Assembly (NCBI GenBank): GCA_021108215.1
Contig: JAIORK010000014.1
Span: 1-64,000 of the forward strand
Reading direction: 5' to 3'
Source of the DNA: a bacterium
GTDB taxonomy: Bacteria > Oederibacteriota > JAAXVQ01 > JAUVAV01
Length of the DNA stretch: 64,000 nt
Made by a program: the position numbers and the translations under genes. A model generated the notes under the pieces. That model saw only the letters and a list, made by a program, of their open reading frames with translations, ran no database searches and was not told the origin of the DNA. This document shows positions 880-64,000 of this stretch, piece after piece; positions within the stretch are counted from its first letter, which is position 1, and each line of letters opens with the position of its first letter.

Positions 880-1057
880 CTTCAACTCTAGTAGAAATAT
901 TTTCAAAGGAAATGAGAAACAATTCAATTGTAGCACATATTTTCGGGCATCGCCCTTTTGGATCGTATTTAGTTAGACCACAGTCACACCACTTTTGTTG
1001 CATTTTTTTATTACTATTTTTATCTAACCGTATTACCGAACTGCATACCGAAGCGAC

Positions 1058-1786: not shown

Positions 1787-1796
1787 TACAATCCAC

Positions 1797-3360: not shown

Positions 3361-3525
3361 CAGTATTTCTCCATTTCCACTATATTCCTGACCATACTAC
3401 TCAATTTTGCCATGGAATTACAGCTCATTTTTTTGAGCGTTTCCTTTCGGGCTACATTTATTTAGACTACACCCGCGTCTCTTTCCATGCACTTTTTTTT
3501 AAAAAAATAACCGATCATGGCGCAT

Positions 3526-3565
3526 AAAAAAAAGCGCATAGACAATTTCTGCCTATGCGCTTTTT
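3526..3565 (-). terminator. Intrinsic terminator after pnp (looks bidirectional)
   Basis: GCGCATAG (3534-3541) pairs with CTATGCGC (3553-3560) around an 11-base loop. It is flanked by eight A on the left and five T on the right, so a U-run follows the stem in either direction. It lies 20 bases past the pnp stop and separates pnp from the envelope genes at 18-3360. Confidence 0.85.
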
Positions 3566-3584
3566 CATACTGACAATTTATATT

Positions 3585-5711: not shown

Positions 5712-5747
5712 TGTCGTGCCTCCTTGACTCCAATGAGTCCCTCATAA

Positions 5748-6017
5748 TTATTTACGTAACTTAAGTTTGGTAATAATCGCTTTGTAACGCATTACATGAT
5801 ATTTTTTCAAATAATCCAACAAACGACGTCGTTTGCTGACAAGCATCAAAAGCCCGGTGCGGGAATGATGGTCTTTGTGGTGTTCTTTAAAATGATCCGT
5901 AAGTCCATTAATACGTTCAGAAAGTAATGCAATCTGGACTTCGGGTGACCCGGTGTCGGTCTCGTGCACCTTATTTCCCTCGATCAATGTCTTTTTCTTT
6001 TCTTTCACTAATGCCAT
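5748..6017 (-). CDS. rpsO: 30S ribosomal protein S15
   Basis: The 89-residue product matches the usual S15 length. The family signature is clear: [14 protein letters not shown], then the [18 protein letters not shown] segment that binds the 16S three-way junction, and the LLDYLKK helix. I chose the ATG at 6017 (MALVKEKK) because AAGGAGG lies seven bases upstream; an in-frame start at 6035 would overlap that site. It is followed by pnp in the classical arrangement. S15 often represses its own mRNA, but I see no diagnostic leader structure here. Confidence 0.97.
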
Positions 6018-6122
6018 TTTCTCGCCTCCTTTCAAAAAAAAATTAATTTTTCATCAAAAAAAACTTACCTTCGCCGCTCAATTGTTAGGTGAAGGATGAG
6101 ATAACGATTGGCTGGTTAAAAA

Positions 6123-6135
6123 TTAGGTAACCTAA
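6123..6135. promoter_or_regulatory. Short perfect palindrome upstream of rpsO
   Basis: TTAGGT-A-ACCTAA is a 6+1+6 perfect inverted repeat, 106 bases before the rpsO start in the 229-base gap after the glycosidase gene. It could be an operator half-site pair or chance in an AT-rich gap. Confidence 0.25.
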
Positions 6136-6246
6136 ATAATCGCTTTTCGGAGGAAAAACCAATTTAGAGTTTATATTTTTACCATAATCTTACACTTTTG
6201 TCAATGATTTCTTCTGGATTTTCTCTCTGATTTTACGGGCCTTTTC

Positions 6247-27977: not shown

Positions 27978-28052
<75 letters not shown>

Positions 28053-46342: not shown

Positions 46343-46382
46343 TAAAAGCCCGGTTGCACTAATACTTGCAACCGGGCTTTTA
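46343..46382 (-). terminator. Terminator after the giant gene
   Basis: A perfect 16-base stem (46343-46358 with 46367-46382) and an 8-base loop; the core is AAGCCCGGTTGCA. The stem itself ends in a UUUUA stretch on the minus-strand transcript. It lies 46 bases past the stop. Confidence 0.85.
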
Positions 46383-46427
46383 TTTTCCTCGAAATATTTG
46401 TCTTGTGCCGACGCCGCGGCCTGCCGC

Positions 46428-49400
46428 TTATGCAGCACTCCCTGTAATCTTGAGTTTGGGTTGCTTGCCGGGAGCCACATTAATATTAATACCTACACCC
46501 AGACTCTTTAACCTCCGAATCAAACGCCCAATCTTATAATCATGCTTCAGCGCCTGAGGTTGTACTTCCGGCGTCATGGTGACCGAGAACTGATTATTGA
46601 ATTTTTTTACGTGCATGTCGATGTCGAATTTCAAAAATCCAAGTACCTGGGTAATTTCACGTATGAGCTGAATTTTCATACCCTGATCAATCTCAGATTC
46701 CATAATCCGCACCAAATGCGAAAAAACTGCACGAATAGCTCGGGTTCGGTTGTTCTCAGAAATCATCTGTTTAGTGCCCTGAACTTTGAGTCCTTCAACT
46801 GCCAGCATAAACTGGTTGTTGTCCAATAATTGCATGGTCGATACACCTGCTGCCTGAGTCTGTTCCTGTTTGACCGAATCAAAAAATCCAAACCCAGCAT
46901 TGCGGATCCTGCCAATCACTGCATTGGTTGGATTAATATTAAATGCGATCTGATCAGCCATGGCCCAACTCAGCAATCCCTGGAGTGCAATGGCCAGGCC
47001 AAAAATGGCAACCAACGCACCCACGACTGCCGGAATGGTAACCGACATCAATACCCCCGCAACAATACCACCAGCCAATATCAGGGCGGTGCCAAAACCA
47101 AACAGAATTTTTCCATAACGTGATATGGCTAAACGCGGATTTGGACCATCCAGTATTTTTTGTCCAATTTGCTTGCTCAAAACACGCTGCAACCAACTTG
47201 GATTCATCATTTTATTATAGCTGGCATAGGTCATGCCAAACTGTGCTTCAAAAGAGGTCTCCAAAATTTCCCTATCTGTCCGGATGGTTTCTTTACTCTC
47301 AATCTGTGCTGCCATTTTTTCCATGAGCGGCAAAGCTGTATTTTCCAACTCACCCATTGCCTGGTTGATCTCGACCAAGTCAGCTTCAACAAACTCACGC
47401 CCACCAAACATCCCTTTGAGATATTGATAGATATTGACTTTAGAAGATTTTTCGTTTTTGGTTTTCGTAAGCATGGCCCATCCGACCTCTGCGGCTTCGG
47501 CCTGTACAATTGTTTCCTTCAAAGACTCCCCATCTAAAATATACTGCTTGATAAATTCCACAACTGCATATTGTCCATATTCTTTGAAATAGGGATTCTG
47601 CTGCAGCTTAATTTCAAGCGCATTGTATTCAGTATCACTGAACATTGATGAAATTGCCATAATGGTTTGTGTAAAAAGTTGGTTCGAGAAGCGTTGATCC
47701 AAAAACCGGATGGACTCTCGGTCAATTCGAATTCTCGAACCCGAATGCTCCACAATATTCTCCGGTTGCGTAATGCTATCTGCACCCAGATCAATTGCAT
47801 GGACGCTATCCAGCGCTTGTGGAATCAAACTAAAAACCGATGCCAAAAGATGCATATACCCATAATGGTGCGCCTGCTGATGTACATTCAACTGGATATG
47901 ACCAAATCTGGATTCTTTGAGTAACTCAACCAGAGTATTCACCGCAGCAGAACCATCAGCAATCTTGCCGTCCATCTTCTGCTTCCATACTTCTACCAAA
48001 GACTTCTCAGCGTGTACTTGTGTAACAGACTGTTGCCCGGTTTGGCGTACGGTCCCCTTCACTTCCTGTTTCTGATGCTGAATGGTCACACGATTTTCAT
48101 TCTCGCTTTTAGCGATCAAACCTTGCTCTGCAATAGTACCTACTGTTGCGGAGATTGCACTGACCATCCCCACCGGTCCTCCTAACAGGGCGCCAAGCAA
48201 TACAGCCGTAAACACAGTTGAAACCAAACGACTGCCCAATGATGTCCAACGACCGCTCATTGCCTGCGCCTTCGCCTGCATCATACCTGGCATAAATCGG
48301 GTCGCCTGATTGAATAACGGCTGCAACACAGGGGTCAACATCAACCCACTGGCCAAGCCCAGTGTCGGTAATCCTGTGAATCCGAGCAAAGCAAATGCCG
48401 CCGCACCAATCAACAAAGTTGATGCCTGAGTGGGGACAAAATTCCCTTTGTTCACTTTTAATAGTGGCACAATAAACTTGGCTTGCTGCATGTGGCGCAG
48501 CGTATTGCCCCAGACTGTTTGTACCTTCTGTCTGAATCGAACTGCAGGAGATTGCATCGCCAATGTATCACGTGCTGCATTTTCTATTTTCTTTGACGTA
48601 ATTTGAATCGCATTTTTGCTTACAATCAAGGCCAGCATCGCAGGACTCGCCTTCGTCCTGTCGAACTGATTGAAATACCGAATGACATTCAACTGCTGGG
48701 TTAAATACTGCTCCACTTCAGAAAAATTCATGGTCTGACCTTGGTAAATAAGAGTACTATTTTCCTTAAGTTCACCTGCTTTTTCACTTACGCGGACAAT
48801 ATTTTGCAATGCAATGTTAAAATCATTCCATTTCGCACCAAATTGACTGCTAATCTTAGTATTTTTCGATTTTCCAACAATTTCATTTTGAAAATAAATT
48901 GCATCACGTTCATCATCAATCGCGGCTTGCACCATGTTTGTGTCAATTTTCACATTGTTAACAGCTTCTGCCATCACCGCTTTAACCCGCGCCGTAGCTA
49001 CCTCTCTCATCTGGGAAGCATACACATCAGCAGTCTGAATTTTCTGATAAATATCTGTTTTCAACATACTCATGGCATCATCAAAATTATCCGCCAGTGC
49101 CATACGACCTGCCAACAGATCTTCTTCCGCTTGCAATCTGGCTCCATCTGATAATTTATTTTGAGATAATAATACCATTGCCTCTTCATCCGCCCCCAAA
49201 ACAATGGCTGCTCGCTGAGCAGACCTTTCGCCTGATTGAATCATCTTGTCATTATTTACCTTTTCGCGTGAAAGCTGCCATTCATTTCGCAATGCCTTCA
49301 CTTCTTCTCGCGCGATTGTTTGATCAGGATTCCCAACACCTGCTTTCCTGTGGACAGCAATGCGACTGCTCAAACTTCTAGTCTGAACGCCCGCATTGTC

Positions 49401-52400
49401 CTGACTCAACACATCTTTCATCACATTGCGTCCAATCATGAGCAACTGCTTTACATCCTGACGATTCAATTCATCTTTTGCCTCAGTGAATACAGTCTCT
49501 TTTCCTTTGATCGCTATTTCTCCCCAGTTTTTCGCTTTGGTAGCGGCCCACTTGTATTTGATCGCATTGCCAACAGATTTCAAAAATAATCCGCCCACCT
49601 CAAGAATTGACAAAGGAGATTTCACAAGACGTCCCGTAAAATGCAGCGGATTGATCAAATCCAGCGCCACACGCCTCCATGCTTTGGATGCCTGTTCCGC
49701 GCTGCTTTTGAAAGTACTCACTGCGTATTCATTATTCAGTTTCGCTGCATCTTTACCACTCTCCAGTTTGAGTTCCAAATCCGCGCCTTGGGAATGATCA
49801 TTCAACATACGCTTGACCGCTTTATCCATCACCCCTTCGGTCGATTTCCCGGCTGCATCCTGCAACGCGATTTTTAAGGGTTTGAGTACCATGGCATCCT
49901 GAAACACACTTTGGACTGTAAAGCGTTTAGATTCCGCCACCACTTCCAACTGCCGGAATTCACTATTGACTTTCAATGCTCCAGAGAGTATTTTTTGATT
50001 TTCTGCAATATTTTTCGTATTCATACTTTCCAAAATTTTATATGCTTTTACATCCTCGGCAAAACCGTCTTTCCATAATGACGAGACCTCAGCTTTTCGC
50101 CTCATCGCTTCCCTCAACGTGACTTCCATCGCTTTTGTATCCACATGAACGTAACGTGTTGTATCCCAGGTCCCGGTTTCACCACCTGGACGTCCGGTTC
50201 GATAGAGCAATTGCGTCAATAAATCCGAATGCAGTTCATGCGCGTTGCGAACAATCAAGGTCAAATTATCCTGATAATTTTTACCGGTTGCGGCTTTTTC
50301 GTTGATAATCGTAACGGTTCTTTGCTTCATTTTCGCAAACGCCTTGACATTTGCCACGATTGTTTGAACAGGTTCCTGGGTCATAAGTTCAATATAAACC
50401 AGGTCCTTGCTGACGTAACGTCCGCTTTTTTCCATTTCAGCCACAGTCATTTCCTTAAAATCGTATTCTCCGGTTTCTTTATTTTTCCCCATTGCGTCTC
50501 TTAGTTTTTCAGTCAATGCTTCTACACGGTTACCGCCTCGACGCACGTAATATCCCGCACCTGATGAATGCTGCACACCAATACCTGCAATATCATCACT
50601 AAATTCCGACTTCCTTAATTCCCCTTCCATTTTTCTTACCAATTCTTTTTGTGCAGCAGGATCACGCTCAAAAATCAATGTACTGTTCCTGGTTTTCCCG
50701 GTCACTGCATCAATCGCAAGTTTGAGTGTTTCTCCCAAGCTGGTTAAAACCTTGCCGCCGGTATATTTCACCTGCGCGTCCAAATTCAAACTGGAGGTAC
50801 TAATTTCAGTTGTTCTTGATCCCAACTGGCTTTGCATCAATCCTCTGATACCGCCAACCGTCGCAGTACCACCCACAATCCGTAATCCTGAAATCCCATC
50901 ATATGCTTTGGTAAGATTGGTCTGCATCTCTGTATAATTAACCCGAACATCTTCAAGCGGTGTACCGCCGTGTTTCCGGGATGCTGTAATCTGCCCAACA
51001 ATATCATTGCTGATTTGATCCCTCTGGAGTGACCCATCTTCACTTACAGGTGCAATTTTACCTTTATCCGCCCCCATCTCTTTTATAACATCATACGAAT
51101 TGAGCTGACTGCCTTTGCCTCGTTGACTAAACAGCGTCCGCATCACAGATGATATTTCACTCGGACGGAATTGTCGCAGTGTATTCAATGCCTTAAAATT
51201 GGCCTTGATGCCTATATTGGTGATCACAAAAATATTTTGATTCATGTATTCCCCGAGATTATATTTACCCGGCTTTTCGAGATAGGCGTCCTTGATCACA
51301 GTAAACTTACCCATCTGTATTTTTCCATTGCTTGTTTCGAGAAAATTTGTCACTTTATCATTAAATTCCGTAAATTCCTTCTTGCCGGAAATCTCATAAT
51401 CAAATCCAAATTCCTTCAATACTTTATCCACCCGCCGTACCAGCCAGCGCTGTGGTGGACTCTGCCCGCCACCGATAATAGCCGAGGTTCTGCTGGTTGC
51501 CATGATATGCACCTCATCGGCTGCAACCAAATTCGCACGCATCATCGCTTTGCGAAGCGCTGCATTGCGCACTGCCGGATTACCAAGATGCGCCCGCTGA
51601 GTATGATCAAAGAGCACAACTTTATCCGAATTGTTGAGCGCTTCAATTAACTTATTATAATTACCGGTTTTATTTGCTTCGCCGGAAAGTTCATTCCCAT
51701 TGACCAATTCAATACCAAACGCTTCTGCCAATTCTTTTTGCTCGATTCCGAGCTTACCCTCTTTATCAGTAATATATTTTTCAATGGCTGAGCTGTCCTC
51801 CAGCAGTAATTCATGGCGCAATTTATTGCCGGTCATGATCTTTGCCAGACCCGCAAACCCGATAAACCCAAAGGTTTTTCCGCCCCCTGCTTTGAGCGCG
51901 ATATTGTTGCCAAACATTAATTCCGCGACCATCATCTTTTGTGAAACACGCAAAGGTGTTTCATATGCTGTCAATCGTTTCATCGCGGTTTGTAGATACG
52001 CAATACTAAATTGAGCAGCTTTTGCGCTTTCCATGTTACCTTTTAATTCTGTGTTTTGTAATTCCTCAAAGACCGAGAATATCTTTTTTCCGCCATTTTC
52101 TTGCAGAACAATTTCATCACGAGCTTGCTGTTCAGCCTGTTCACGAATTTCATTTTTTTCCAATAATTTTTTCTCTACATTTTTCGTCAACTCTCCAGTA
52201 TTTTTCTCGACCAATTCCTTATACTTCCCACTGTCTAAACGGCCGGTATCTTTCATCTCCTTAAACAATTCATTGATTTTCGCATTTAATGCCGTATCAA
52301 TTTTATTTTGAATCTTATTCAAATTATCTTCAAATCCCTTTCTTTCAGCAGCATACTTTTCGGCAATTGCCCTATAGGTTTCATTCCAGGCTTTATTGGC

Positions 52401-55400
52401 TTTGGCTGTGATTTGTGCCTCACCTAATTTTTCAAAGTGACTCCTTAAATTCCCAAGTTGGTTTTCAGACAAATGAATTTCTTTTGCTGCTTCCTTCGTC
52501 TCAAAAACAGCCTCATTTGCCATTTCAAAACTCAGTTTACCTTTATTATAACTTTCTATCGCTTGCGTTTCTGCTGCCAGTTTCAAAATCACTGCATCAA
52601 TCATCAGCTCTGCGCTTTGTCGATCCACTTTGCTGTTTGCATTCAGATCATTCTTGTCGCTTTGCAAAATCGATTCAAGCACTTTTGTTCTGCCTTGCAT
52701 AATCGTTTCCAAAGTAAATGCCATGAATTTTTCCAACTCTGGTTTCAAAACATGATCAAGTATATTAAGAACCGCTTTCATTTCATCAGTCTTTGGCGTG
52801 CTTCTCTCACCGGAACGCCTCCATCGTTGAACAATACTGCGAGTCACCAAATCACGCAAACGACTTCTTACCTTTGCAAACCAACTGGTATTGGCCGCAG
52901 GTCTGGTTTGCGCCGATTCACGTATTTTTTGAACAAAATCAGCATCATTTTGCATCATCTTGTCCAGTAGTACACGCCGTTGACGGCTCGTGCCAGCTTC
53001 ATTAAACCTGGCAAACAATGCACGCGATTTTTGTGTTGCTTCAAGATACTGATTTGCCCGTTCTGCAAGTCCTTTTTGGCTATGTCTTTTTGAATTCCCA
53101 AGCGCTTCTGCCAATGTAATGATTTCTTTAGCTTTTTCACCTGTTTTGACTGCATCTTTTTCAACTGATTTTTCTTTGTCCCTGTTTTTTATTTCATTAT
53201 GAATCCGTTCAGCAACTTGTCTGTGTGCTTCCGATTTGGCTGTGACAAGATCAGTGAATTGGTCAAGTGTGAGTTTATCAACTATTTTTTCACTATTTTT
53301 AAATTTACCTAAAGCTTTATGAATAGCATCTATAGCATCTTTGAGTTCACTTTTTCCCTTCAGTGTTGTTTCTAATTTATTCATCGCTTCATTCAAATCC
53401 TTTGTTTCCGTCTTAGATGATTTATCAGCTTCTGTGACGCCAAGTGTCGCAGAAAACATTTCACTGCTTTTCTGAATTCCTTCGCCCATATGAATGAGCC
53501 GCTCACTTTCCGAAGTGCTAATTTTAAATTGTTTTGATATGCCGTTCAGTAAATTTTTTCTTTGACGTTCCAAAGCATTCATTAATTTTTCCAACTTGGT
53601 TTTTTGTTGTTTCAGATCATTATAGTGTCTCTTTTCATTAATTTTAAAACCTGGTTTTTCCGTAAATTCGCTCATTTCCGTGCTAATTTCTTCTGATTCC
53701 TTCGCAAGACGTTCTAACTTGGCATCCAGTTCTTTGCCTGCCAAACAGTAATCTTTGCTTCCAAAAGTGTCGCGCATTTCTACCAGGAGTTCGCGAACTT
53801 TCAAACGCGCACGTAGCTTTGCAAGTGACCCTATTTTTTCGAATTGAACGCGCGCCTCTGCCTGTGCCAATTGCGTTGTGACATTGTTCAACTCCAGTGT
53901 TCCATCCGCATTTTTATTCTTCCCGCTCTGATGATTTTGGTTTCCTTCCGTTGCTGATTTTTCATTCAGCTCGCCATCACGGCGCTCTATTATCTTTTTA
54001 TCGATCGCATCTTTAATCTTTGCAATCCCTTCCTGAACTTCATTGCTTTTCCCAAGTCTGCGCTTTAATTCATTTGTGATTTTTTTACCAAACTCAAGAT
54101 TACGACCATTCTCGGTTGCAAGATCAGCTGCTTTCGCTAATTCTGAAAATGCTTCTTTAACACTTTTATTTTCCAAAACGCTTTTTAATTCTGAAGGCGT
54201 TAATTTCAGCGCTTCCAGGAATTGAACAGCCCCACGCCAATCTTTTGTGATCTTATCGGGCAAAAGTGTATCTCTACGTTCCAACGCGCGTTTACCCGTT
54301 GATTTCGTTTCCTCTTGAGCTCTTGGATAATTCCCTTCATGATCGCGTAGTTGTTTCGCCTTCTTCGTTTCACTTATTTTGGCATTGTCTGCTATTTCTA
54401 CATATGCTTTATCCAATACCTTTGTTTGTAGATCTGGCGGTAATCGTTTCATCATTGTGCTGTCACGCGTTATGCTGGATGCCGGGACGCTATCCAACAA
54501 GATCTCCAAAGCTGTACGTCCACTCTGACTTTCCCCTTCTGATAAAACCTCGCGATCAGCTATATCAACAAGCTCATCATTTTTTTCTACTTGCTTCTTT
54601 GTGTCTTGAACCCCTGATTTTTCTGTACGCGCTGCGCCTTCAATTTCATGGCTTTTGACAAACTTGTCCCTCATGTTTTGTTTCTCAGCAGTGGTCATTT
54701 TTTCCATAGCTGATGCAATATCCATATTTTCCAGCATTCCGGATTCTTTCAATATTTTTGGATCAGAATTTCCAAGAAGTTTTGCGGCTGTTTTGGATTC
54801 CATCAGTTCACCGACTATTTTAGCAGCGTCGCCTTTTTCTTTTCCAAGCGCTTTAATAATATCTTTCACATTACCAGATGTTTTTCCACCAAACAACCGA
54901 CCTAACAAGGATTTTTCTCCAAAAAACATACTATGTATCGCTTCAGGTGCCATGGTCGAAATCGTTCTTTCCAGACTTTTTACACCACTCTCTCCGAATT
55001 CTTTAATAACATCAAGTGCCTCACTGCCACCTTTTGCCAGTTGACCCTGCACTGCCGCTTTCGCAGCTTCTATCTTTTCATAATTTCTAAATATATCCTT
55101 TGCCTCATGCACTGTATGAGGCTGATTTTTCTTCAAAATCGCGACAGCATCCTGCTCATTACCTGTTTTGAGTGATTTTTCTCCAACTGCTTGTTCGCCA
55201 GCATTGGATGATGCTTTCACATCAGATAATGTTCTCAAATAGGTTGCTTTGTTTGACTTCAATGTCGAAAGTACTGTTTTGTAAACAGCCAAACGTTTTT
55301 CAGACCTGCTCAGCGAAGGATTCAGCGCCAATGTTTCCCGGACATGCATATCCAGTTTTGCCATATTAAGTTTTTCGCCTTTAATGCTATCAAAATTATG

Positions 55401-58400
55401 CACTTCACGCTTCGTTTCCAAATAATCAATTGCCTTTTGTTTCCATGTTCCCTTTTCAGATGCCAAACTTGTCTTATTTCCTGTCAAAAACTTAAGTCCA
55501 ACTTTTGCAACACCGGACACTATTTTACTCATCACCCGATCAGAAAACGGAATTTTTCCTTCACAAATTTTGTTGATACGCATTCCTGCCATTTTGGCTC
55601 TTACAAACGTAATACCCGTCATATTCGCGACATATTTAACTCCGCCGGTCAATGTATGACCCGCGCTATGCACCCCTGCTAATGCAACTCTCCCTACATA
55701 TTCAGAGCGCTTCATTTTGCCCCCGCGCATGCTGACAGCCGCTGATATAGAACCCATCAGTGGAATAACCCCAAGTGCCAACCATGTGGTGAGTACTGTT
55801 TTTCCTCCACCAAGTTCACCTGCCAAATAATTCAATCCGATCATCATGGCAAAACCACCGGTTTGTTGTTTAAACGATTTCCACTTAAACACACTCTTCA
55901 ATGCGCCACCGCCGCCAAACACAAATGCCACCGCTGCTGCCGGATTGCTTTTAAATGTCTCCCAGATATGCTCATGAAAATGTGTCAGACTGAGCGCAGT
56001 TGCCTGCAATGGTTTGAAATCTCCTCGTGTAAAAACAGCCCCAACATCCAACGCCAAGCCAAACATAAATCCAATCGAAATTTCAGCTTGCACACCGAAA
56101 AAGGTATACGCCCCTGCAATGGATTTCCAGGCAATTTCTCCGAATTTTTGAACGGGATTATCCCAGCCGGAAAAGAAATCAATTGATGTGTTTGCAACAA
56201 AATTATCCAGCCGTCTTTGCTGGGTATATCCGGACATAGTTTTATACTTCAAACTGGCTTCATCAAAACCCAGCATATAACTCATTTTTGACAGGGTACC
56301 AAGTGCCAAGGTTGAAAAATCGCCTGGGAGCCAGTCAGCACTCGCTTGATGAATTGTGCCATTGATAGCATACGAAATACGTTGGTATAAACTATCCCCT
56401 CGTATTTCCATCCATTTCGCAAAATTCTCCCTAGTACCGGTGGCATGACCCTGACGCGCCATGAAGGAATCATTGTTATCAGGTGTAAAACCAGCAATCT
56501 TGCCAACAGTACCATCTTTCCCTACATCACGTATTATGGTTCCGGTTTCATTATCTATTTCACCCTGATAACTGAATTGTGCGGTTGTATGCGTGGGTTT
56601 ATCTGCGCTCCCAAATTGCCCTAAACGATTCCCGGTCAGATAACCCGCAACACTCTTTATTAAGCCCGGTTTTTCAAGATTTGTTGTTGTGGTTGTCGTT
56701 AATTTCCCGGTTATTTTTTTTGATTCTTTTTCTATTCCAAATGCTTTATTAACGATCTCATTTCCTTTATTTATAAAATTATCATGTAGCTCCACCGCCT
56801 TTTGCCCAGTGGAAAAAGGGTTAATAAACCCCGCGCCCCAAGATAGAGCTCTCGTTATACTCGCCGCTACATTGCCGGCGGCACCAATTAAACCAGGTTC
56901 TTTATTTATAGTAATAGTATCTGTATGTTTTTTTGTTTGCGTCGTTGTTAATGATTTTTCACTCGCTTCAACATCAGTTACCCTTTCCGTTTCCACATCC
57001 ATATACATAAATTCATTAAAAGCCGTATTATCTGACCATTCCATCCTGGATGTTCTTTCAATTCCCAAAGTTTTAACTGCGCCATCAGTATTTTTATACT
57101 TTATTTCCGTCATTTCCCCTTTGTCATTATAAGCAGCAACAAACTCTGTTTTATTAAATAGGCTGCTAACTTTTTGATTTTTTGCATTTTGTGGCATTCC
57201 TTTTTCGAGAGTTTCCAGAGCAGATGTTCCGGAAAGTTCTACTGCCAATTCTTTCCCTGTCATGGCTTTTTCGCCCTGCCAGGCAGTTATTTCGAAAACC
57301 GTCTGCTTTTCGATTTTTCTCGTTGTTTTCGAAAAACCACCATACATAAATAATTCACCGTCCGAAGATGATCGCTTTGAACGACTATAACTAACTTTCA
57401 CCGATTTTTTTTCTCGTACTCCAGCACTCCAAATCCGGCCTTGCCTGTCTTTAAAAACAATCTGCTTTGGCGCATCGCCGGACAGATGTGAATCACTCAA
57501 TATTGAAATGAGGGTTGATTCAAGATCAGCACCTTTATTTTTCATAAACGACTTAAGCTTTTCGATTTCTTGTTTCGAATTAAACGGATTATCCTTAGAG
57601 GCGGCCAATTCACCCAATGTCATCCTTTTTTCCAAAGTATGCTGATTGGCAAAGTTGCCCTTCCGAACCACGTTTTCTTTTTCTTTCTCCTTGCCGTCTC
57701 TCCATGTACTCGTCTGTGTACTGCCATTACGCTTCGTTTTCTCAACATAATTTTTCGGAGCACCGGCTTTGATTTTTTCATCAGGATTTGACGAATTTAT
57801 CTGCTGCGCTTCTTCTTTCGAATAGCGTTCAGTCACAACAAGACTCTCATTTAAAACTTCTTTACCGGCATTTGTGTAGGTGGTCGTCCTCGTCTCTTTA
57901 CCGTTTTCCATGGTAATGGTTGTTACTGACTTCGTGAAACTGATTGTTTCTTGATTTTCCCCTTTACCCCGTTGCGTCGAGTTTTTTCCATTCATCGTTA
58001 TTGTACGCGTGTACTTATTGGGGTTTCCCTGCCCATCCCAATTTTTCACGTCCGTTTTATCCTGACGCGATGTTATTATTGCACCTACTTGTTTTCCTTC
58101 CGAATCCACCAGTTTTATTTCCGTCTTTGTACTATCACGATGACTCAATTTCCCATCATCATTCCACTGCATTGTATACTTATTGCTTATACATATTTCT
58201 TTGCCAATCGGGTTACCCTTGTCATCGTATTTATATTCCGTGACAACGGCATCAGTTCCTGTACGTTTTATCGCCGTTCCTCGATCATTGAAAAAAGTTG
58301 TGTAATCCACTTTACCTTTTTCGATACGCACAACTTTGTTCCCATTTATTTTCTCGTTTGTTATTGCGTTTTCACCGGTTATTGTTGTTAATTTTAGTTT

Positions 58401-61400
58401 GCCTTTTTCATATACAGAACGACTGGAAAAGTTCGATATCTTTGTACTACTACCATCTTCATTTTTTTGTTCCATTTGATTCATCGTTATTTTACGCGTA
58501 TAACTTACCGGATTTCCATTTACATCAAACTTGCTGCCGATCTTTGCTGTGGTTATTACTGTTTGTACGCTTTTACCCTTCGCAATGAATTTGATCGAAC
58601 TTACATGAATATTTTTTCCTTTTTTTATTTGAAGGGTTGTTGCTTTTTGATCAAACGCGACATTTCCTTGTGTTCCATTATAATTAAGAGTGATTGCTTT
58701 TGTAAACGCCAGAGGATTTCCATCTTTATCAAAATTATCATCACCTCTTTTATCAACATCAACGTGTATTTCAATTTTAGCGACTTCATCATTTTCATTT
58801 CCACTCAATAATCTAGTCGTATTACAACCACGTTGTCCCTTGTGCCCAACTGTTACAGATGTATCGTAAGATGCAAATTGATCTGTTGCGACCTCAATTT
58901 CTCCCGTAAGTCTGGTGGTCAATATCACTTTCTCGCCATCATTATTTTTGCCCGGCATGCTGATTATGACCGTACCGTCAGTTCCCTTGTTCTCATAAAT
59001 CATAAACCGTCCGGAATCATTGGCAACAATCTGTTCCCTGGAATCCAGGCTGTTATTTTTTGCTGTTTCATTGGCATAACCCGTCCGACGGAGCTGTTCC
59101 GGCGTTCCCTGCGCCTGATAGTTTTGTCCATTTTCGCCCATAAACAAGGTTACTGCTGCGCCATGAATATTTTCGCCTGACATAGAATACGATATCGCCT
59201 TGTCTTTTTTTGATTCAACCATAGTATATGTGTTGTTTTTTCCAGCCTTGATTTTCTTGTCCGGTCCCATTTTCGTATTTGCCTTAAACATAGCACCTGT
59301 TGGCAATCCAATCTCAAAAAGTTGTTTCTTTGTCCCGGTAGCGCGGTAGGTGGTATCTACACCCTTTGCTGAAATCACCACATTGGTATGATTCTTCGTT
59401 TCACCGGAAAGCAACATATCGTCATTTTGTATAACCGTTGTGTAAAAACCATGCCCATCCATTTGAATCTGTTGATGCGTCGCAAGTGACTGATTATAAG
59501 TCGCAGCATCGGTTGGCCATACACCTTCAGCTTTCAACGTTTGCTTACTGCCGCGAACTTGGCGTAAATTCCAGCGAAAGGTTCCCGTGGTTGCATCAAT
59601 CTCATAATTTTTGGTGGTCTGCAAAACAGGTTCACCCAACAGCGTACTCGCTGTCTCTATCTTACTCATCGCCCCATCAGCACCGGTCTGGTATAAAATA
59701 TGCTTACGCATGATCGTATCGACTTTAACCGCTTGGCTACTCAACGTACCATTCTCGATTTTCGCAACACTGAAAACCATGGTTTCTGTAAAATCAAATT
59801 CTACGCCCTGCTGTGTGCCACCACCCGCAGATTCGCCACCAGCAGGTTTCAATAACGCACGACCTTCTTGGCTAAAATAGTATTCCTTTTTTGTATCATT
59901 GACGATCAAGCCAAACCCGTTGGCTGTCTTTTTCAACGTGTACCCTTCACCGCTATTGGCATTTAATGTAGCAAATGATTCAGGTGTCATCACGCCTTTG
60001 CTATCATAAGCAAACGTCACCTGAGCATCCTTGTATTGCACGGTGTATCCTGTTAACTTATTGTCATCATACATTGCGCGTGCTACCTGATTCCCGTTTT
60101 CAGTTGTTTTGGTGACAACAAACCTGGTCAGATCCGTTTTTGTCGAAAACAGCGATTTTTCATGCATAAACTGAACTACTGTTTGGTCTTTGTCCGCCAG
60201 ATGCAATTCCTGTAAAACACCATCATATTTTGCAACATAACCAATTGACTCACCCTTGCTTTCAAACGTATTAGTGCCGGTTATATAATATTGATTTTTC
60301 GCAAGACCCTCCGGCGTTCCGACAATCGTGATTTTCCCCACTTCAGAAAGATTAAATATATACGCCGTCTTGCCGCGCACCTCCTGGCTGTTTTTCAGGC
60401 TAAACCCGGCAGCAAGCAGCGCCTCATCAGTCGCCAGTACCTGTTTGTCAGCAGTATACGTCCGACCATCTTTGACAATGGTTGCGCCTGAGCCATCCGG
60501 ATTGATCTTGATATCAAAATTTCCTTTGATAGAATCAGCATAATGCACCGCCGATTTTTCAGCTTCGGTCTTTATGGGGGTCGCGGTTGCCGTATTGTCA
60601 GGTTGAATTACCAATTCATGCGGTTTACCGTTGATCATTGCCACCTTGGCGACAGGCGCATCACGATCAGTGGATAATAATTGGTCAACATTCGCAGTCT
60701 TGGCCTGGTCTCCCTGACCGATCTGAACCTTAAGCTGTGTGTTTTGCCCGGTCAAATTCATACACTCGCCATCTGCCTCAAAGGTCTGCTGGGTAACACC
60801 CTTTGAATCTTGCGTTATCATTTTTTGCGGTTGTAATTGACCTTGATCATCTTTCGCAAATTCCATACTTGTCGAAGATTCATCCGCGTTTATTTGCGTT
60901 AACTGAACCTTGCCATCCTTGGTTTTTTCCAGATTGGCATTGAGTATGGATGCTGTCTGGCTATCACCGTTTTTCATCCCGGCTGCCTCACCACTCACCT
61001 TGAAAGCCAGATCCTTCATCATCTCGCCTACCAATTCACCAAGTTCAGGCGCCAAACTGTTTTCAGGTAGATTTTGGTCTCCATTGAGTTGATTGGCCAA
61101 ATTCTGAAGTTTCAAACCCATTGCTGCCATGTTGGCATCCACTTGATCCGGAGTAGTGTTTCTCAAAAAATCCCCGGCACTTTCCAATGCTTTTTGAATG
61201 TCCTGCGTCTGCCCGATATTATCCATACTGCTCAACATTTCAGCTGCTTTTAAATTAAATGCCGCTTTTTGTTGATCCGGCATATTGCTGCTATCTGCCA
61301 ACTTCATCGCAGTTTTAACCGAGGAAACCGCCTCTTTCTGTGTTGCATCACCGTCTTGCAACTCTGCCAATTTCAAATTCATCTCCGGACTATTGCTCTG

Positions 61401-64000
61401 ACTGACATGCTTGGCAATACCCTTTAAGGCTCCCGGATCAGAATTATTGGCATACATTCCCATTTCCGCTTTTGCCAAAGAAGCCATTGCTTCCTGATGC
61501 TGCTGTGTTCCAGTTGGTTGGGATTGCGCATATTTTTGAAGTATCTCAACTGCTTCTGTTCCCATGCGCCTGGTATCCGCTGTGGATAATGCCTCTCCCG
61601 CCGCATCCACAGCCACACCTTTGACAGCATTTTCCGCCAAGACCATGGCTTTCTGAACATCCCGAGGCAACGATTTAGTATCTACAGGCAATGCGGATGT
61701 CAATGCATGCTTTTCGCCATTGGCATCTCTAAACGTGGCCACACATTCGTCCTTAATCTTCGTTCCTTCTCCGCCTGCGCCGTTTTTATATTGGTAGACA
61801 CCGCCTTCATTGCCATACCCGACCTTGGAGCCGTTGGGTATAAAAACCCGCTCTTTCCCTTTTATAAAAGTACCCTCTACACGGTAATCGCCGGTTTTGA
61901 CAAATTTATTGTTGCTATCGAGTTTAACCTGAATTTGATTACCCTTGCTGTCCTCAACAATTTGTACTGCCGCGCCATTGTGTTCAAAGGAGACACCTTC
62001 CATTCCAATCACCTTTTGTTGTTCTCCAACTTTTGGCGGCGGTCGTTTGGCGGTTGCATGCTTGGCCGCCTCTGCCTTAGACTGGTTTGCTTTAACACCC
62101 TTGTTATCTAAACCAGCATCTACCGGTTTGCCTATTTTTTCACTTGCTGTCTCTATCAATTTCCCATCTGCAATTTTAAAGGTCTGCTCTAGTCTAATAT
62201 TGCCGTTTTCATAGGTAGTCGCCTTTACCTCAAGCGGTTGTTCGGAAGCAGCACCTTTTCCAGGCTTGCTGTTATCGGCGAGTTGGGTATCAGCCTGCAC
62301 GTCAGCAGATGTCTGTTGATCAAACATTTTGGTAACCTGTGTACCATCCGCACGTGTTGTTTGCGCCCCAATAAGTTGACCTGTATTGTCGAACACCTTC
62401 GTTAGCGCCTGTCCAGCCGGATTTTGTCCCTGTGAATAAGAATAATTGTTCCCGCTCGACATGGCACCGGCAGCCTCGAGTTGTTTTGCCAATTGCTGCA
62501 CACCGCTGGGTTGTGTGGTTGCATTGCTGTTGGCAACCGCTTTAACCTTATCTGTGGCATTCGCCTTGGCATCACCTGTTGAAACAAAATCCGACCCGGC
62601 TGATTCAAGCAAACGGTTGTTGGTATCGGTATTATTTTCGACATTCTTGTTTTGAGTTTCTGCATTATTGGCAGTATTGGCACCACCGTCACCGCCATTG
62701 CCGCCTGCCGCACCGTCTCCAGTGGAGATGGCATCTCCCTGATCTTTGGGAACCACACCCTCCCGGCGCCGCACACCATCTAAATCATCGATCGAGACAT
62801 TTTTGTTTGCCTGCTTCACCTCATTACGCTCCGGCTTGGGCTTTTTCGTATTTATTTCAACACGATTGTTTGAATCCTGCTGTTTGTCCAGTCCTTCTTT
62901 TGACTTAGCACTTATATCCTTCTGAACTTGCTCCTTGGGTGTCTTGATTGGTTGTGATTGCTTGGTCTCAGGTTTGGTAAACTTCGGTTTCTTGATTGGT
63001 ATTTCTGTTTTAACTGTTTCGTTCTGTGCTTTCGTGTTGTCCTTCGCAGTACCTGTATATGCCGGTTTATTTGCTGTTTTCGGGCTCTCGGTCGCCTCTG
63101 AATTAACCTTGGTTTGCGAAATAGACGACGGTGTTACCATCCCCTGCTCATGCACACTACTTGCTTCACCAAAATCAAATGACAAACTTTCTCCAAGTGC
63201 CAATCCCGTAATCTGTTCAACCACTGGTGAAAGATTACTCTGCTGGGAAAGTGAAGGCGTCGCAAAATTTTCAGCACTGGTTGGAATCATAGGATTGTCA
63301 CCCTGAGTTCCACCAGATCCGCCAAGCATGAATGAGGCCTCGGGTGCTCTGGTGGACATAGAGGGAGAGAGCGCGCCCAGACCATCACCATAGATGCCTG
63401 CCATATTCCCCTTTATTCCCGGCGTGATAATATTGCTCATCATATTTTTTAGAATATTTGTCAAAGGAGCCATGGGTGATCTATCAACTACAGAAGCGGA
63501 TGCTGCAGACGTTCCTCTCGGCGTTCTATTTGTATTAATTACCTGAGGTATAACCTTATTAAGAAACGTACCAAAAGCATTCGCCATCTGCTGGACCTGA
63601 GCTGGTGCATATCCCTGGGCTTGCAGGACTGGTCCAACATAACTCGAATAAGCGGTTACCACAACATTGGCAACCGCCGACAATGCGAGGTCCGCAATAA
63701 ACTTACCCAGGTCATTTGCGCCGGGATCTGTCATATACCCCACAACGCCGGAAACAACATTTCCAATCAAACTACCAAGTACCGCGACGAGTTCATCACT
63801 ATATCCAGCATTTTTCAGGAGCTTGGTTGCCGCTACATTAATCCCGGTCAATACCAATGACTTGAATACCTCTGAATTCACTAACGCGCTCAAATCAAAT
63901 CCGGACCCGGACATGCCGATTGATTCTTTCAAAGCATCCTGAAATCCTGTCTTAAACGCATCACCAAAACTTTCTGCACCAATCATATTCATCACACCGC
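46428..64000 (-). CDS. Giant protein with SecA-like ATPase domain, 5' end outside the window
   Basis: One frame stays open for more than 17.5 kb (at least 5,855 codons) and reaches the right edge, so the start is not visible. Order in the visible part: hydrophobic helices (~30-150); Gln/Asn/Thr/Lys-rich linker (~165-600); a beta-rich repeat region with xDxxGNP units (~1000-2250); a membrane patch (~2600-2760); a long charged helical region (~2780-3980); a SecA-like motor (~3986-4636: KAGGGKT, ADEVH, GGTATVGG, RTGRPGG); more helices; then hydrophobic hairpins at ~5190-5300 and ~5626-5680. The sequence is evenly codon-like with no internal stop, so it is a real gene. No function is known; a translocase or giant surface machine is a guess. 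Confidence 0.85.
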   Translation of the reverse strand, partial: GVMNMIGAESFGDAFKTGFQDALKESIGMSGSGFDLSALVNSEVFKSLVLTGINVAATKLLKNAGYSDELVAVLGSLIGNVVSGVVGYMTDPGANDLGKFIADLALSAVANVVVTAYSSYVGPVLQAQGYAPAQVQQMANAFGTFLNKVIPQVINTNRTPRGTSAASASVVDRSPMAPLTNILKNMMSNIITPGIKGNMAGIYGDGLGALSPSMSTRAPEASFMLGGSGGTQGDNPMIPTSAENFATPSLSQQSNLSPVVEQITGLALGESLSFDFGEASSVHEQGMVTPSSISQTKVNSEATESPKTANKPAYTGTAKDNTKAQNETVKTEIPIKKPKFTKPETKQSQPIKTPKEQVQKDISAKSKEGLDKQQDSNNRVEINTKKPKPERNEVKQANKNVSIDDLDGVRRREGVVPKDQGDAISTGDGAAGGNGGDGGANTANNAETQNKNVENNTDTNNRLLESAGSDFVSTGDAKANATDKVKAVANSNATTQPSGVQQLAKQLEAAGAMSSGNNYSYSQGQNPAGQALTKVFDNTGQLIGAQTTRADGTQVTKMFDQQTSADVQADTQLADNSKPGKGAASEQPLEVKATTYENGNIRLEQTFKIADGKLIETASEKIGKPVDAGLDNKGVKANQSKAEAAKHATAKRPPPKVGEQQKVIGMEGVSFEHNGAAVQIVEDSKGNQIQVKLDSNNKFVKTGDYRVEGTFIKGKERVFIPNGSKVGYGNEGGVYQYKNGAGGEGTKIKDECVATFRDANGEKHALTSALPVDTKSLPRDVQKAMVLAENAVKGVAVDAAGEALSTADTRRMGTEAVEILQKYAQSQPTGTQQHQEAMASLAKAEMGMYANNSDPGALKGIAKHVSQSNSPEMNLKLAELQDGDATQKEAVSSVKTAMKLADSSNMPDQQKAAFNLKAAEMLSSMDNIGQTQDIQKALESAGDFLRNTTPDQVDANMAAMGLKLQNLANQLNGDQNLPENSLAPELGELVGEMMKDLAFKVSGEAAGMKNGDSQTASILNANLEKTKDGKVQLTQINADESSTSMEFAKDDQGQLQPQKMITQDSKGVTQQTFEADGECMNLTGQNTQLKVQIGQGDQAKTANVDQLLSTDRDAPVAKVAMINGKPHELVIQPDNTATATPIKTEAEKSAVHYADSIKGNFDIKINPDGSGATIVKDGRTYTADKQVLATDEALLAAGFSLKNSQEVRGKTAYIFNLSEVGKITIVGTPEGLAKNQYYITGTNTFESKGESIGYVAKYDGVLQELHLADKDQTVVQFMHEKSLFSTKTDLTRFVVTKTTENGNQVARAMYDDNKLTGYTVQYKDAQVTFAYDSKGVMTPESFATLNANSGEGYTLKKTANGFGLIVNDTKKEYYFSQEGRALLKPAGGESAGGGTQQGVEFDFTETMVFSVAKIENGTLSSQAVKVDTIMRKHILYQTGADGAMSKIETASTLLGEPVLQTTKNYEIDATTGTFRWNLRQVRGSKQTLKAEGVWPTDAATYNQSLATHQQIQMDGHGFYTTVIQNDDMLLSGETKNHTNVVISAKGVDTTYRATGTKKQLFEIGLPTGAMFKANTKMGPDKKIKAGKNNTYTMVESKKDKAISYSMSGENIHGAAVTLFMGENGQNYQAQGTPEQLRRTGYANETAKNNSLDSREQIVANDSGRFMIYENKGTDGTVIISMPGKNNDGEKVILTTRLTGEIEVATDQFASYDTSVTVGHKGQRGCNTTRLLSGNENDEVAKIEIHVDVDKRGDDNFDKDGNPLAFTKAITLNYNGTQGNVAFDQKATTLQIKKGKNIHVSSIKFIAKGKSVQTVITTAKIGSKFDVNGNPVSYTRKITMNQMEQKNEDGSSTKISNFSSRSVYEKGKLKLTTITGENAITNEKINGNKVVRIEKGKVDYTTFFNDRGTAIKRTGTDAVVTEYKYDDKGNPIGKEICISNKYTMQWNDDGKLSHRDSTKTEIKLVDSEGKQVGAIITSRQDKTDVKNWDGQGNPNKYTRTITMNGKNSTQRGKGENQETISFTKSVTTITMENGKETRTTTYTNAGKEVLNESLVVTERYSKEEAQQINSSNPDEKIKAGAPKNYVEKTKRNGSTQTSTWRDGKEKEKENVVRKGNFANQHTLEKRMTLGELAASKDNPFNSKQEIEKLKSFMKNKGADLESTLISILSDSHLSGDAPKQIVFKDRQGRIWSAGVREKKSVKVSYSRSKRSSSDGELFMYGGFSKTTRKIEKQTVFEITAWQGEKAMTGKELAVELSGTSALETLEKGMPQNAKNQKVSSLFNKTEFVAAYNDKGEMTEIKYKNTDGAVKTLGIERTSRMEWSDNTAFNEFMYMDVETERVTDVEASEKSLTTTQTKKHTDTITINKEPGLIGAAGNVAASITRALSWGAGFINPFSTGQKAVELHDNFINKGNEIVNKAFGIEKESKKITGKLTTTTTTNLEKPGLIKSVAGYLTGNRLGQFGSADKPTHTTAQFSYQGEIDNETGTIIRDVGKDGTVGKIAGFTPDNNDSFMARQGHATGTRENFAKWMEIRGDSLYQRISYAINGTIHQASADWLPGDFSTLALGTLSKMSYMLGFDEASLKYKTMSGYTQQRRLDNFVANTSIDFFSGWDNPVQKFGEIAWKSIAGAYTFFGVQAEISIGFMFGLALDVGAVFTRGDFKPLQATALSLTHFHEHIWETFKSNPAAAVAFVFGGGGALKSVFKWKSFKQQTGGFAMMIGLNYLAGELGGGKTVLTTWLALGVIPLMGSISAAVSMRGGKMKRSEYVGRVALAGVHSAGHTLTGGVKYVANMTGITFVRAKMAGMRINKICEGKIPFSDRVMSKIVSGVAKVGLKFLTGNKTSLASEKGTWKQKAIDYLETKREVHNFDSIKGEKLNMAKLDMHVRETLALNPSLSRSEKRLAVYKTVLSTLKSNKATYLRTLSDVKASSNAGEQAVGEKSLKTGNEQDAVAILKKNQPHTVHEAKDIFRNYEKIEAAKAAVQGQLAKGGSEALDVIKEFGESGVKSLERTISTMAPEAIHSMFFGEKSLLGRLFGGKTSGNVKDIIKALGKEKGDAAKIVGELMESKTAAKLLGNSDPKILKESGMLENMDIASAMEKMTTAEKQNMRDKFVKSHEIEGAARTEKSGVQDTKKQVEKNDELVDIADREVLSEGESQSGRTALEILLDSVPASSITRDSTMMKRLPPDLQTKVLDKAYVEIADNAKISETKKAKQLRDHEGNYPRAQEETKSTGKRALERRDTLLPDKITKDWRGAVQFLEALKLTPSELKSVLENKSVKEAFSELAKAADLATENGRNLEFGKKITNELKRRLGKSNEVQEGIAKIKDAIDKKIIERRDGELNEKSATEGNQNHQSGKNKNADGTLELNNVTTQLAQAEARVQFEKIGSLAKLRARLKVRELLVEMRDTFGSKDYCLAGKELDAKLERLAKESEEISTEMSEFTEKPGFKINEKRHYNDLKQQKTKLEKLMNALERQRKNLLNGISKQFKISTSESERLIHMGEGIQKSSEMFSATLGVTEADKSSKTETKDLNEAMNKLETTLKGKSELKDAIDAIHKALGKFKNSEKIVDKLTLDQFTDLVTAKSEAHRQVAERIHNEIKNRDKEKSVEKDAVKTGEKAKEIITLAEALGNSKRHSQKGLAERANQYLEATQKSRALFARFNEAGTSRQRRVLLDKMMQNDADFVQKIRESAQTRPAANTSWFAKVRSRLRDLVTRSIVQRWRRSGERSTPKTDEMKAVLNILDHVLKPELEKFMAFTLETIMQGRTKVLESILQSDKNDLNANSKVDRQSAELMIDAVILKLAAETQAIESYNKGKLSFEMANEAVFETKEAAKEIHLSENQLGNLRSHFEKLGEAQITAKANKAWNETYRAIAEKYAAERKGFEDNLNKIQNKIDTALNAKINELFKEMKDTGRLDSGKYKELVEKNTGELTKNVEKKLLEKNEIREQAEQQARDEIVLQENGGKKIFSVFEELQNTELKGNMESAKAAQFSIAYLQTAMKRLTAYETPLRVSQKMMVAELMFGNNIALKAGGGKTFGFIGFAGLAKIMTGNKLRHELLLEDSSAIEKYITDKEGKLGIEQKELAEAFGIELVNGNELSGEANKTGNYNKLIEALNNSDKVVLFDHTQRAHLGNPAVRNAALRKAMMRANLVAADEVHIMATSRTSAIIGGGQSPPQRWLVRRVDKVLKEFGFDYEISGKKEFTEFNDKVTNFLETSNGKIQMGKFTVIKDAYLEKPGKYNLGEYMNQNIFVITNIGIKANFKALNTLRQFRPSEISSVMRTLFSQRGKGSQLNSYDVIKEMGADKGKIAPVSEDGSLQRDQISNDIVGQITASRKHGGTPLEDVRVNYTEMQTNLTKAYDGISGLRIVGGTATVGGIRGLMQSQLGSRTTEISTSSLNLDAQVKYTGGKVLTSLGETLKLAIDAVTGKTRNSTLIFERDPAAQKELVRKMEGELRKSEFSDDIAGIGVQHSSGAGYYVRRGGNRVEALTEKLRDAMGKNKETGEYDFKEMTVAEMEKSGRYVSKDLVYIELMTQEPVQTIVANVKAFAKMKQRTVTIINEKAATGKNYQDNLTLIVRNAHELHSDLLTQLLYRTGRPGGETGTWDTTRYVHVDTKAMEVTLREAMRRKAEVSSLWKDGFAEDVKAYKILESMNTKNIAENQKILSGALKVNSEFRQLEVVAESKRFTVQSVFQDAMVLKPLKIALQDAAGKSTEGVMDKAVKRMLNDHSQGADLELKLESGKDAAKLNNEYAVSTFKSSAEQASKAWRRVALDLINPLHFTGRLVKSPLSILEVGGLFLKSVGNAIKYKWAATKAKNWGEIAIKGKETVFTEAKDELNRQDVKQLLMIGRNVMKDVLSQDNAGVQTRSLSSRIAVHRKAGVGNPDQTIAREEVKALRNEWQLSREKVNNDKMIQSGERSAQRAAIVLGADEEAMVLLSQNKLSDGARLQAEEDLLAGRMALADNFDDAMSMLKTDIYQKIQTADVYASQMREVATARVKAVMAEAVNNVKIDTNMVQAAIDDERDAIYFQNEIVGKSKNTKISSQFGAKWNDFNIALQNIVRVSEKAGELKENSTLIYQGQTMNFSEVEQYLTQQLNVIRYFNQFDRTKASPAMLALIVSKNAIQITSKKIENAARDTLAMQSPAVRFRQKVQTVWGNTLRHMQQAKFIVPLLKVNKGNFVPTQASTLLIGAAAFALLGFTGLPTLGLASGLMLTPVLQPLFNQATRFMPGMMQAKAQAMSGRWTSLGSRLVSTVFTAVLLGALLGGPVGMVSAISATVGTIAEQGLIAKSENENRVTIQHQKQEVKGTVRQTGQQSVTQVHAEKSLVEVWKQKMDGKIADGSAAVNTLVELLKESRFGHIQLNVHQQAHHYGYMHLLASVFSLIPQALDSVHAIDLGADSITQPENIVEHSGSRIRIDRESIRFLDQRFSNQLFTQTIMAISSMFSDTEYNALEIKLQQNPYFKEYGQYAVVEFIKQYILDGESLKETIVQAEAAEVGWAMLTKTKNEKSSKVNIYQYLKGMFGGREFVEADLVEINQAMGELENTALPLMEKMAAQIESKETIRTDREILETSFEAQFGMTYASYNKMMNPSWLQRVLSKQIGQKILDGPNPRLAISRYGKILFGFGTALILAGGIVAGVLMSVTIPAVVGALVAIFGLAIALQGLLSWAMADQIAFNINPTNAVIGRIRNAGFGFFDSVKQEQTQAAGVSTMQLLDNNQFMLAVEGLKVQGTKQMISENNRTRAIRAVFSHLVRIMESEIDQGMKIQLIREITQVLGFLKFDIDMHVKKFNNQFSVTMTPEVQPQALKHDYKIGRLIRRLKSLGVGININVAPGKQPKLKITGSAA
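46960..48440 (-). other. C-terminal membrane-hairpin region of the giant protein
   Basis: Three hydrophobic blocks: residues ~5190-5220 (LLIGAAAFALLGFTGL), ~5253-5292 (VSTVFTAVLLGALLGGPVG) and ~5626-5680 (FGTALILAGGIVAGVLMSV and following). They are long enough for paired membrane helices. A charged helical stretch separates the second and third. The final ~140 residues are soluble. Confidence 0.7.
50090..52040 (-). other. SecA-like DEAD motor domain inside the giant protein
   Basis: Motif by motif this follows SecA. Walker A is ALKAGGGKTFGF (SecA: MKTGEGKT). The DEVD box is ADEVHIMATSRTSAIIGGG (SecA: DEVDSILIDEARTPLIISG). The GMTGTA element is IVGGTATVGG. In the second nucleotide-binding domain KNYQDNL stands near the GRGTDI position, and QLLYRTGRPGGETGTW corresponds to QLRGRxGRQGDPGSS. 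Key residues fall at ~4035-4041, ~4160 and ~4599, a spacing larger than in SecA, so there are insertions. The zinc-binding tail of SecA is not seen. Confidence 0.75.
52050..55650 (-). other. Charged helical/coiled-coil region of the giant protein
   Basis: About 1,200 residues dominated by Lys, Glu, Ala and Leu with heptad-like spacing (EKLMNALERQRKNLLN, AIAEKYAAERKGFEDNL) and few Pro or Gly. It resembles a long stalk or scaffold just ahead of the motor. No enzyme motif is recognised. Confidence 0.6.
55700..56110 (-). other. Central hydrophobic patch of the giant protein
   Basis: Residues ~2628-2765 contain several hydrophobic segments (EISIGFMFGLALDVGAVF, AAAVAFVFGGGGALKSVF, TWLALGVIPLMGSISAA) that could cross a membrane two to four times. 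It separates the beta-repeat half from the motor half. Confidence 0.6.
57900..60300 (-). repeat. RHS/YD-like beta-repeat array in the giant protein
   Basis: Recurring units: FDKDGNPLAFTKAITLN, FDVNGNPVSYTRKITMN, YDDKGNPIG and WDGQGNPNKYTRTITMN near residues 1750, 1823, 1920 and 1984. A different ~80-residue unit holds TGTKKQLFEIG and QGTPEQLRRTG. The xDxxGNP pattern recalls RHS/YD repeats, which build beta shells around toxins or form adhesive stalks. Similarity is visual; no profile search was run. Confidence 0.6.
61700..63995 (-). other. N-terminal helical and low-complexity region of the giant protein
   Basis: Small-residue-rich hydrophobic helices (LVAVLGSLIGNVVSGVVGY, LALSAVANVVVTAYSSYVG) are followed by ~400 residues rich in Thr, Lys, Asn, Gln and Ser with few hydrophobics, which look disordered. 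The true N-terminus and any export signal lie beyond the window. Confidence 0.65.

Follow-up and report, generated by a model that had tools for sequence, protein, structure and literature searches.

A giant gene with a putative embedded SF2-like ATPase module, and natural SecY-SecA fusions in sister giants

General features of the g14 locus

The window analysed here, a stretch of 64,000 bp, corresponds to C14:1-64000 of a draft genome (G000) that consists of 67 contigs with a total size of 3.56 Mb and is 97% complete. One frame on its minus strand, designated g14, is uninterrupted from its stop end at 46428 up to the window edge, where it is still open. On the full contig, g14 comprises 6,778 codons from stop to stop (C14:46431-66764, minus strand, 20.3 kb), with two candidate starts, MLFHG (66746) and MSAYSG (66722), and a product of roughly 6,770 residues; a GTG at position 63995 is not its start. 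The initial annotation, which was limited to the window, had given a chain of at least 5,855 residues, a correct lower bound, and had proposed to extend the contig in search of the true start and a signal sequence. Both the candidate starts and a signal peptide (RRTISFLLAIVFVLTMTGLDVILAHA/FD) were found 2.7 kb past the window edge, the latter at about residues 40-66 and ending in an A-x-A cleavage-like site (NYRRTISFLLAIVFVLTMTGLDVILAHA/FD).

Features of the 3' end of the gene within the window are:

46428..64000, minus strand: in-window part of g14 (residues about 922-6778; the gene runs on to C14:66746 or 66722)
46343..46384, minus strand: just downstream of the g14 stop codon, a GC-rich inverted repeat and then TTTTAT; intrinsic-terminator-like, read by eye and absent from the consensus-scan listing

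A second terminator-like inverted repeat, also read by eye, lies between g14 and the ORF upstream of it. Given such repeats on both sides, g14 is probably transcribed separately from its neighbours. The upstream ORF (C14:66862-73413; L003:11862-18413, minus strand) is rich in repeats, encoding at least 2,184 amino acids with 162-bp tandem repeats. The sole Rfam match within the window is a tRNA gene (27981-28052, minus strand).

Architecture of the g14 product

No domain of g14 was recognised by Pfam, and its architecture was described from hydropathy, composition and comparison with paralogues, the positions of which are given in the following section. Outside the ATPase module, the regions that fall within the window are:

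63735..64000, minus strand: C-terminal part of the first hydrophobic cluster, from hydropathy (whole cluster residues 773-1010, the rest outside the window)
56505..61952, minus strand: beta-rich, YD/RHS-like region, patchily common to the paralogues (residues about 1605-3420)
55728..56087, minus strand: two middle hydrophobic segments (residues 3560-3679) with a K/R-rich flank after them
52125..55367, minus strand: stalk, charged and proline-poor, from composition (residues about 3800-4880)
46431..48812, minus strand: C-terminal module, common to family giants of either motor subtype and up to 67% identical among them (residues 5985-6778)
48171..48416, minus strand: first C-terminal hydrophobic hairpin region, from hydropathy (residues 6117-6198)
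46986..47108, minus strand: second C-terminal hydrophobic hairpin, from hydropathy (residues 6553-6593)

The signal peptide is followed by an acidic region (residues 200-600) and by the first hydrophobic cluster, which is also present in paralogue g48 and, in a reduced form, in paralogue g49. A low-complexity linker joins this cluster to the beta-rich region. The latter had been described as part of a beta-repeat half, for which g14 itself gives a faint signal: 10 YD-like motifs were counted, against a mean of 3.0 and a maximum of 9 in shuffled sequences, and a Pfam search gave no RHS_repeat match in g14, the significant match (1.5e-11) being in paralogue g49. For the coiled-coil stalk proposed earlier, it is the charged, proline-poor composition that speaks in favour, and the stalk is probably helical. 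The membrane hairpins proposed for the C-terminus were recovered as the two hydrophobic hairpin regions listed above.

In all three paralogues, the last of the middle hydrophobic segments has more lysine and arginine residues behind it (5, 4 and 3) than in front of it (1, 1 and 2), which by the positive-inside rule would place the stalk and the ATPase module on the cytosolic side. The whole chain contains eight cysteines, none of them after residue 4340, and thus no C-terminal zinc-binding motif, a motif found in only part of the canonical SecAs. Cysteine depletion was considered as a sign of export and dropped, as the fused SecY-SecA parts described below are about as poor in cysteine.

With a length of 20.3 kb, above a threshold of 20 kb, a signal peptide and hairpins, and no Pfam domain, g14 is a giant ORF of the kind described from the Omnitrophota and related PVC candidate phyla (PMC10066038, PMC12057145), with which it shares its size, the occurrence of multiple copies per genome, the signal peptide or many transmembrane segments, and the scarcity of recognisable domains. 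It differs from these giants in belonging to another lineage, in carrying a motor below Pfam detection, and in combining constant N- and C-terminal modules with two exchangeable motor subtypes; giant ORFs as such are already known in related candidate phyla, and these last features are what is new in g14.

A conserved ATPase module in four giants

The module embedded between the stalk and the C-terminal module comprises the following elements:

49665..52112, minus strand: DExH/SF2-like ATPase module, subtype A (residues 4885-5700)
51873..51893, minus strand: motif I / Walker A, KAGGGKT (residues 4958-4964; AGGGKT invariant in four giants)
51468..51521, minus strand: motif II, ADEVH (residues 5082-5086), then SRTSAIIGG
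50874..51467, minus strand: insert separating motif II from motif III by about 200 residues, at the position that the preprotein cross-linking domain has in SecA; from motif spacing; similar size in subtype B
50850..50873, minus strand: motif III-like, GGTATVGG (residues 5298-5305)
50277..50303, minus strand: motif V-like, NEKAATGKN, from the alignment of four giants
50181..50201, minus strand: motif VI, RTGRPGG (residues 5522-5528)

All motifs named in the initial annotation (KAGGGKT, ADEVH with SRTSAIIGG, GGTATVGG and RTGRPGG) are thus present in the order given there. Their designation as hallmarks of SecA did not hold: they are motifs of SF2 proteins in general, and SecA was not recognised in g14 by any of the profile searches.

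Residues 4880-5640 were searched against the own genome and 45 genomes of the phylum. G000 contains three copies of the module, each in a giant ORF of its own: g14 on C14 (6,778 codons), g48 on C48 (C48:29621-52690, 7,690 amino acids) and g49 on C49 (C49:170-21910, 7,247 amino acids). A fourth copy of this subtype (A) was found in a MAG of the same family filed as Candidatus Firestonebacteria (DAOVYW010000003.1). The motor occupies the same position in all four, and the search for the same architecture in related genomes, as suggested earlier, yielded a family of giants. An assembly artefact is ruled out by the same order of modules in paralogues on other contigs and in a MAG of another genus.

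The four giants align over the whole module, with AGGGKT, DEVHxxATSxTSA, IVGxxxT, NExxAxGKN and QxxxRxGR invariant. The identity of the three relatives to g14 is no more than 36-38% over the module (42-44% over its core), and yet nearly all residues of the catalytic motifs are the same in each, a degree of conservation far above that expected by chance, which indicates a conserved ATPase. Together with the conservation of SF2 motifs I, II, III, V and VI and with in-register local profile matches to SF2 families, this gives good support for a conserved SF2-like DExH ATPase, one that would be predicted from its motifs to hydrolyse ATP.

Subtype A was absent from G016, which is 96% complete and belongs to one genus with G017; this points to a patchy distribution. 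Two scans of 84,980 named genomes returned one locus, that of the Candidatus Firestonebacteria MAG, by a short-pattern method that misses divergent members and may omit near relatives. No homologues were found in viral contigs, plasmids or phages.

Constant ends and an exchangeable middle

The N-terminal module (residues 15-320), the C-terminal module (residues 5900-6778) or both recur in further giants of G000, on C36 (7,831 amino acids) and C9, and in giants of G013, G014, G015, G016 and G018. The genomes concerned cover the whole of the family searched and include one genome of a sister family. In most of these further giants, a second motor subtype (B) occupies the position that subtype A has in g14 and is likewise followed by the shared C-terminal module. 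Subtype B has the signature GEALQLAMGGGKS ... AWDEFHAAFHTTDTIIGASG ... NIVGFSGTFEG; hhalign places it in register with subtype A across motifs I and II (E 7e-6), and motif III of both lines up in the joint alignment. The RxGRxG motif is absent from subtype B, and in two members, G018:C318 and G018:C326 (L153, L155), Walker A is altered to GYGKE and GGGKQ; to judge from these residues, both motors are probably inactive. Some copies of the family therefore cannot be working motors, and the loss of the Walker A serine or threonine in these members is what could be said for reading the module in general as a degenerate, non-catalytic fold with a structural or regulatory role. We consider this very unlikely for subtype A, in which Walker A, Walker B and motif VI have kept their residues unchanged amid the divergence of the rest.

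The C14 and C36 loci are duplicates: the repeat-rich ORF upstream of g14 has a homologue in the same position beside the C36 giant (60% identity), and the two giants are 47-67% identical over their end regions. At the nucleotide level the two giants match only near their ends, and no DNA match to C36 was found across C14:48512-59632, the 11-kb middle that includes the motor, which would accordingly have been either exchanged or diverged past recognition at the DNA level. In appearance, the mismatch between C14 and C36 resembles a cassette exchange. Constant N- and C-terminal modules around two motor subtypes at one place show the middle to be exchangeable. It is well supported that g14 is a giant chain with an embedded conserved ATPase, a signal peptide and membrane hairpins, and that it belongs to a family of such proteins.

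Constant ends with an exchangeable middle, as in C14 versus C36, also recall polymorphic contact-dependent systems. The giant might accordingly be an adhesin or a delivered weapon, with an ATPase that works outside the producer, for example in a target cell; the RHS-like repeats of g49 and the depletion of cysteine would suit such a role, and the Omnitrophota giants have been interpreted as adhesion or predation proteins (PMC10066038). The K/R flanks, however, put the motor inside the cell, the C-terminal end is conserved and not a variable effector, no effector domain was recognised by Pfam, and g14 is flanked by terminator-like repeats, all of which make this an unlikely explanation.

Relationship of the module to SecA

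The genome of G000 encodes a separate canonical secA (884 amino acids, C49:205892-208543) and a secY (on C42), which answers the earlier question of whether the canonical gene is also present. The module of g14 shares with canonical SecA (PF07517/PF01043/PF21090) the order of motifs I, II, III and VI, the succession of DEVx and TxxIIxG, and some 200 residues inserted between motif II and motif III; it differs in having no profile-level similarity, in being embedded in a chain of about 6,770 amino acids and in having no zinc-binding C-terminus. The insert matches the preprotein cross-linking domain of SecA in size, without a profile match.

Searches by Pfam, NCBIfam and PDB sequence matched neither SecA nor another ATPase to the module, and the SecA_DEAD, SecA_PP_bind and P-loop_SecA profiles had no match among the four subtype-A and six subtype-B members searched, although the same profiles do match another giant of G000 (g4a, see below). 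When the module was aligned by hhalign to 26 canonical SecAs of the phylum, motifs I and II were in register (E 0.078); the E values to SecA ranged overall from 0.08 to 0.19, no better than those to other SF2 families. For comparison, 22 further profiles were cut from SF2 proteins of the same family, one of which (SF2_15/L094) is itself a SecA. In a home-made profile comparison, SecA held ranks 1 and 2 of 24 for the segment from motif I to the insert under two of the three gap settings; the results of this comparison were contradictory across gap settings, and hhalign showed no preference for SecA. A SecA block-chain test, a weak one with a block list distorted by gap removal, scored the module like shuffled sequence. 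The identification of the module as a SecA-like motor, made in the initial annotation, is thus not established, the sequence searches being empty, the profile comparison inconsistent and the block-chain test negative.

Structure prediction was of limited help. The AlphaFold model of the 816-residue module, obtained from a two-sequence input, reached a pLDDT of 33. A crop covering RecA2 was modelled with alternating strands and helices (pLDDT 57, pTM 0.62), and a Foldseek search with this crop against the PDB gave SF2 helicases as 17 of the top 50 matches, none of them SecA and none significant.

The module could be an SF2 ATPase of non-SecA descent, acting on nucleic acids or remodelling complexes, that was recruited into a giant scaffold. 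This would agree with the best local profile matches, which are to other SF2 families drawn from PF00270/PF04851 matches, and with the weak resemblance of the RecA2 crop to SF2 nucleic-acid helicases. Nucleic-acid helicases, however, have a short spacing between motifs II and III, and the spacing in the module is about 216 residues in subtype A and 216-228 across both subtypes; this is the one SecA-like feature that remains. A signal peptide and membrane hairpins are moreover an odd setting for a nucleic-acid enzyme, and we regard the non-SecA origin as rather doubtful. Descent from SecA is for its part possible rather than demonstrated, and we see the case for and against it as evenly balanced.

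SecY-SecA fusions in sister giants

True SecA domains are fused into other giants of the g14 lineage, mostly together with SecY. The giant g4a (G000:C4:2956-30966, minus strand; loci L004 and L006), of 9,337 amino acids, combines Sec, OEP and cellulase domains in one chain: a SecY domain (PF00344, 4e-47) is followed by SecA_DEAD (6e-14), SecA_PP_bind (2e-5) and P-loop_SecA (0.0016), then by OEP/TolC-like domains (6e-21; 3.6e-7) and by a GH5 cellulase domain (1.7e-12); the SecY-SecA segment lies at about C4:23700-27900. The same order of SecY and SecA in one frame is repeated in G014 (L126), G017 (L125) and G018 (L127), so that it has been kept in four genera, and the alignment of the fusions extends from SecY across Walker A of SecA (TGQGKT/S) and the DDEG box. 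The fusion itself is established by these matches, and its parts may work jointly. It is the most surprising observation of this analysis. No report of a natural SecY-SecA fusion was found in the literature searched, and we know of none from earlier work. An engineered SecY-SecA fusion transports protein (PMC5562318); it has the domain order of the natural g4a, joined by an artificial linker, and bears on g4a, not on g14. The self-contained export machine that the initial annotation envisaged for g14 likewise fits g4a, with SecY, SecA and OEP in one chain, far better than g14.

Several neighbours and relatives of these fusions were observed. Next upstream of g4a lies another giant (G000:C4:33402-61847, minus strand; L005, L007) of 9,482 amino acids with GH5, GH130, GH99-like and GNAT domains; over 1,656 residues it can be aligned with the C-terminal part of g4a at 54% identity. 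In G018 (G018:C297; L127:1-5319, plus strand), the SecY-SecA chain also has a glycosyltransferase family 20 domain (3.3e-15), which lies upstream of SecY-SecA in the same frame. SecA takes yet another form in the giant 3,307-residue ORF L128:377-10297 (minus strand; G015:C42), which has a signal peptide, SecA_DEAD (7e-20), SecA_PP_bind and P-loop_SecA domains and a Fis-type HTH_8, without SecY. In the abstract of a preprint by West-Roberts et al., the majority of giant genes are reported to code for divergent secA DEAD helicase domains. Extra SecA-type ATPases with a link to secretion outside the canonical Sec system are also known from PVC bacteria as secondary SecA_DEAD proteins (PMC4452313); unlike g14, they are encoded by a separate, Pfam-recognised gene with type I secretion HlyD/OEP genes alongside.

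Proposed role of g14

That sister giants contain Sec machinery makes a motor role more likely for the g14 module from the outset, but does not prove its descent from SecA. We propose that the g14 family is a lineage-restricted one of giant envelope proteins. The signal peptide would direct the N-terminal part of g14 out of the cytoplasm and the hydrophobic clusters would anchor the chain in the inner membrane, with the beta-rich part displayed outside and the charged stalk and DExH-type ATPase in the cytosol, flanked by the C-terminal hairpins. The ATPase would act as a tethered motor for translocation, driving polypeptide through a Sec channel at the expense of ATP in the manner of SecA; its cargo would probably be either g14 itself or a partner giant. 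With a signal peptide leading out and a motor held inside, a tethered motor that moves the chain is the simplest use of this layout. As a whole, this reading of g14 as a membrane-anchored envelope giant with a cytosolic, SecA-like tethered motor is put forward tentatively, at somewhat less than an even chance. The more specific proposal is that the g14 lineage builds export machinery into the very giants that it exports, g14 carrying its own highly diverged, SecA-derived motor which helps to move its chain across the inner membrane, alongside the sister Sec-fusion giants; it is more speculative, and we hold it to be rather unlikely as it stands.

For the export of bacterial proteins of 5,000 to 85,000 residues, a conserved ATPase in a fixed slot of exported giants, with interchangeable subtypes, offers a concrete and testable candidate for a motor borne by its cargo, and the natural SecY-SecA fusions would be the clearest example of a translocase contained in a single polypeptide.
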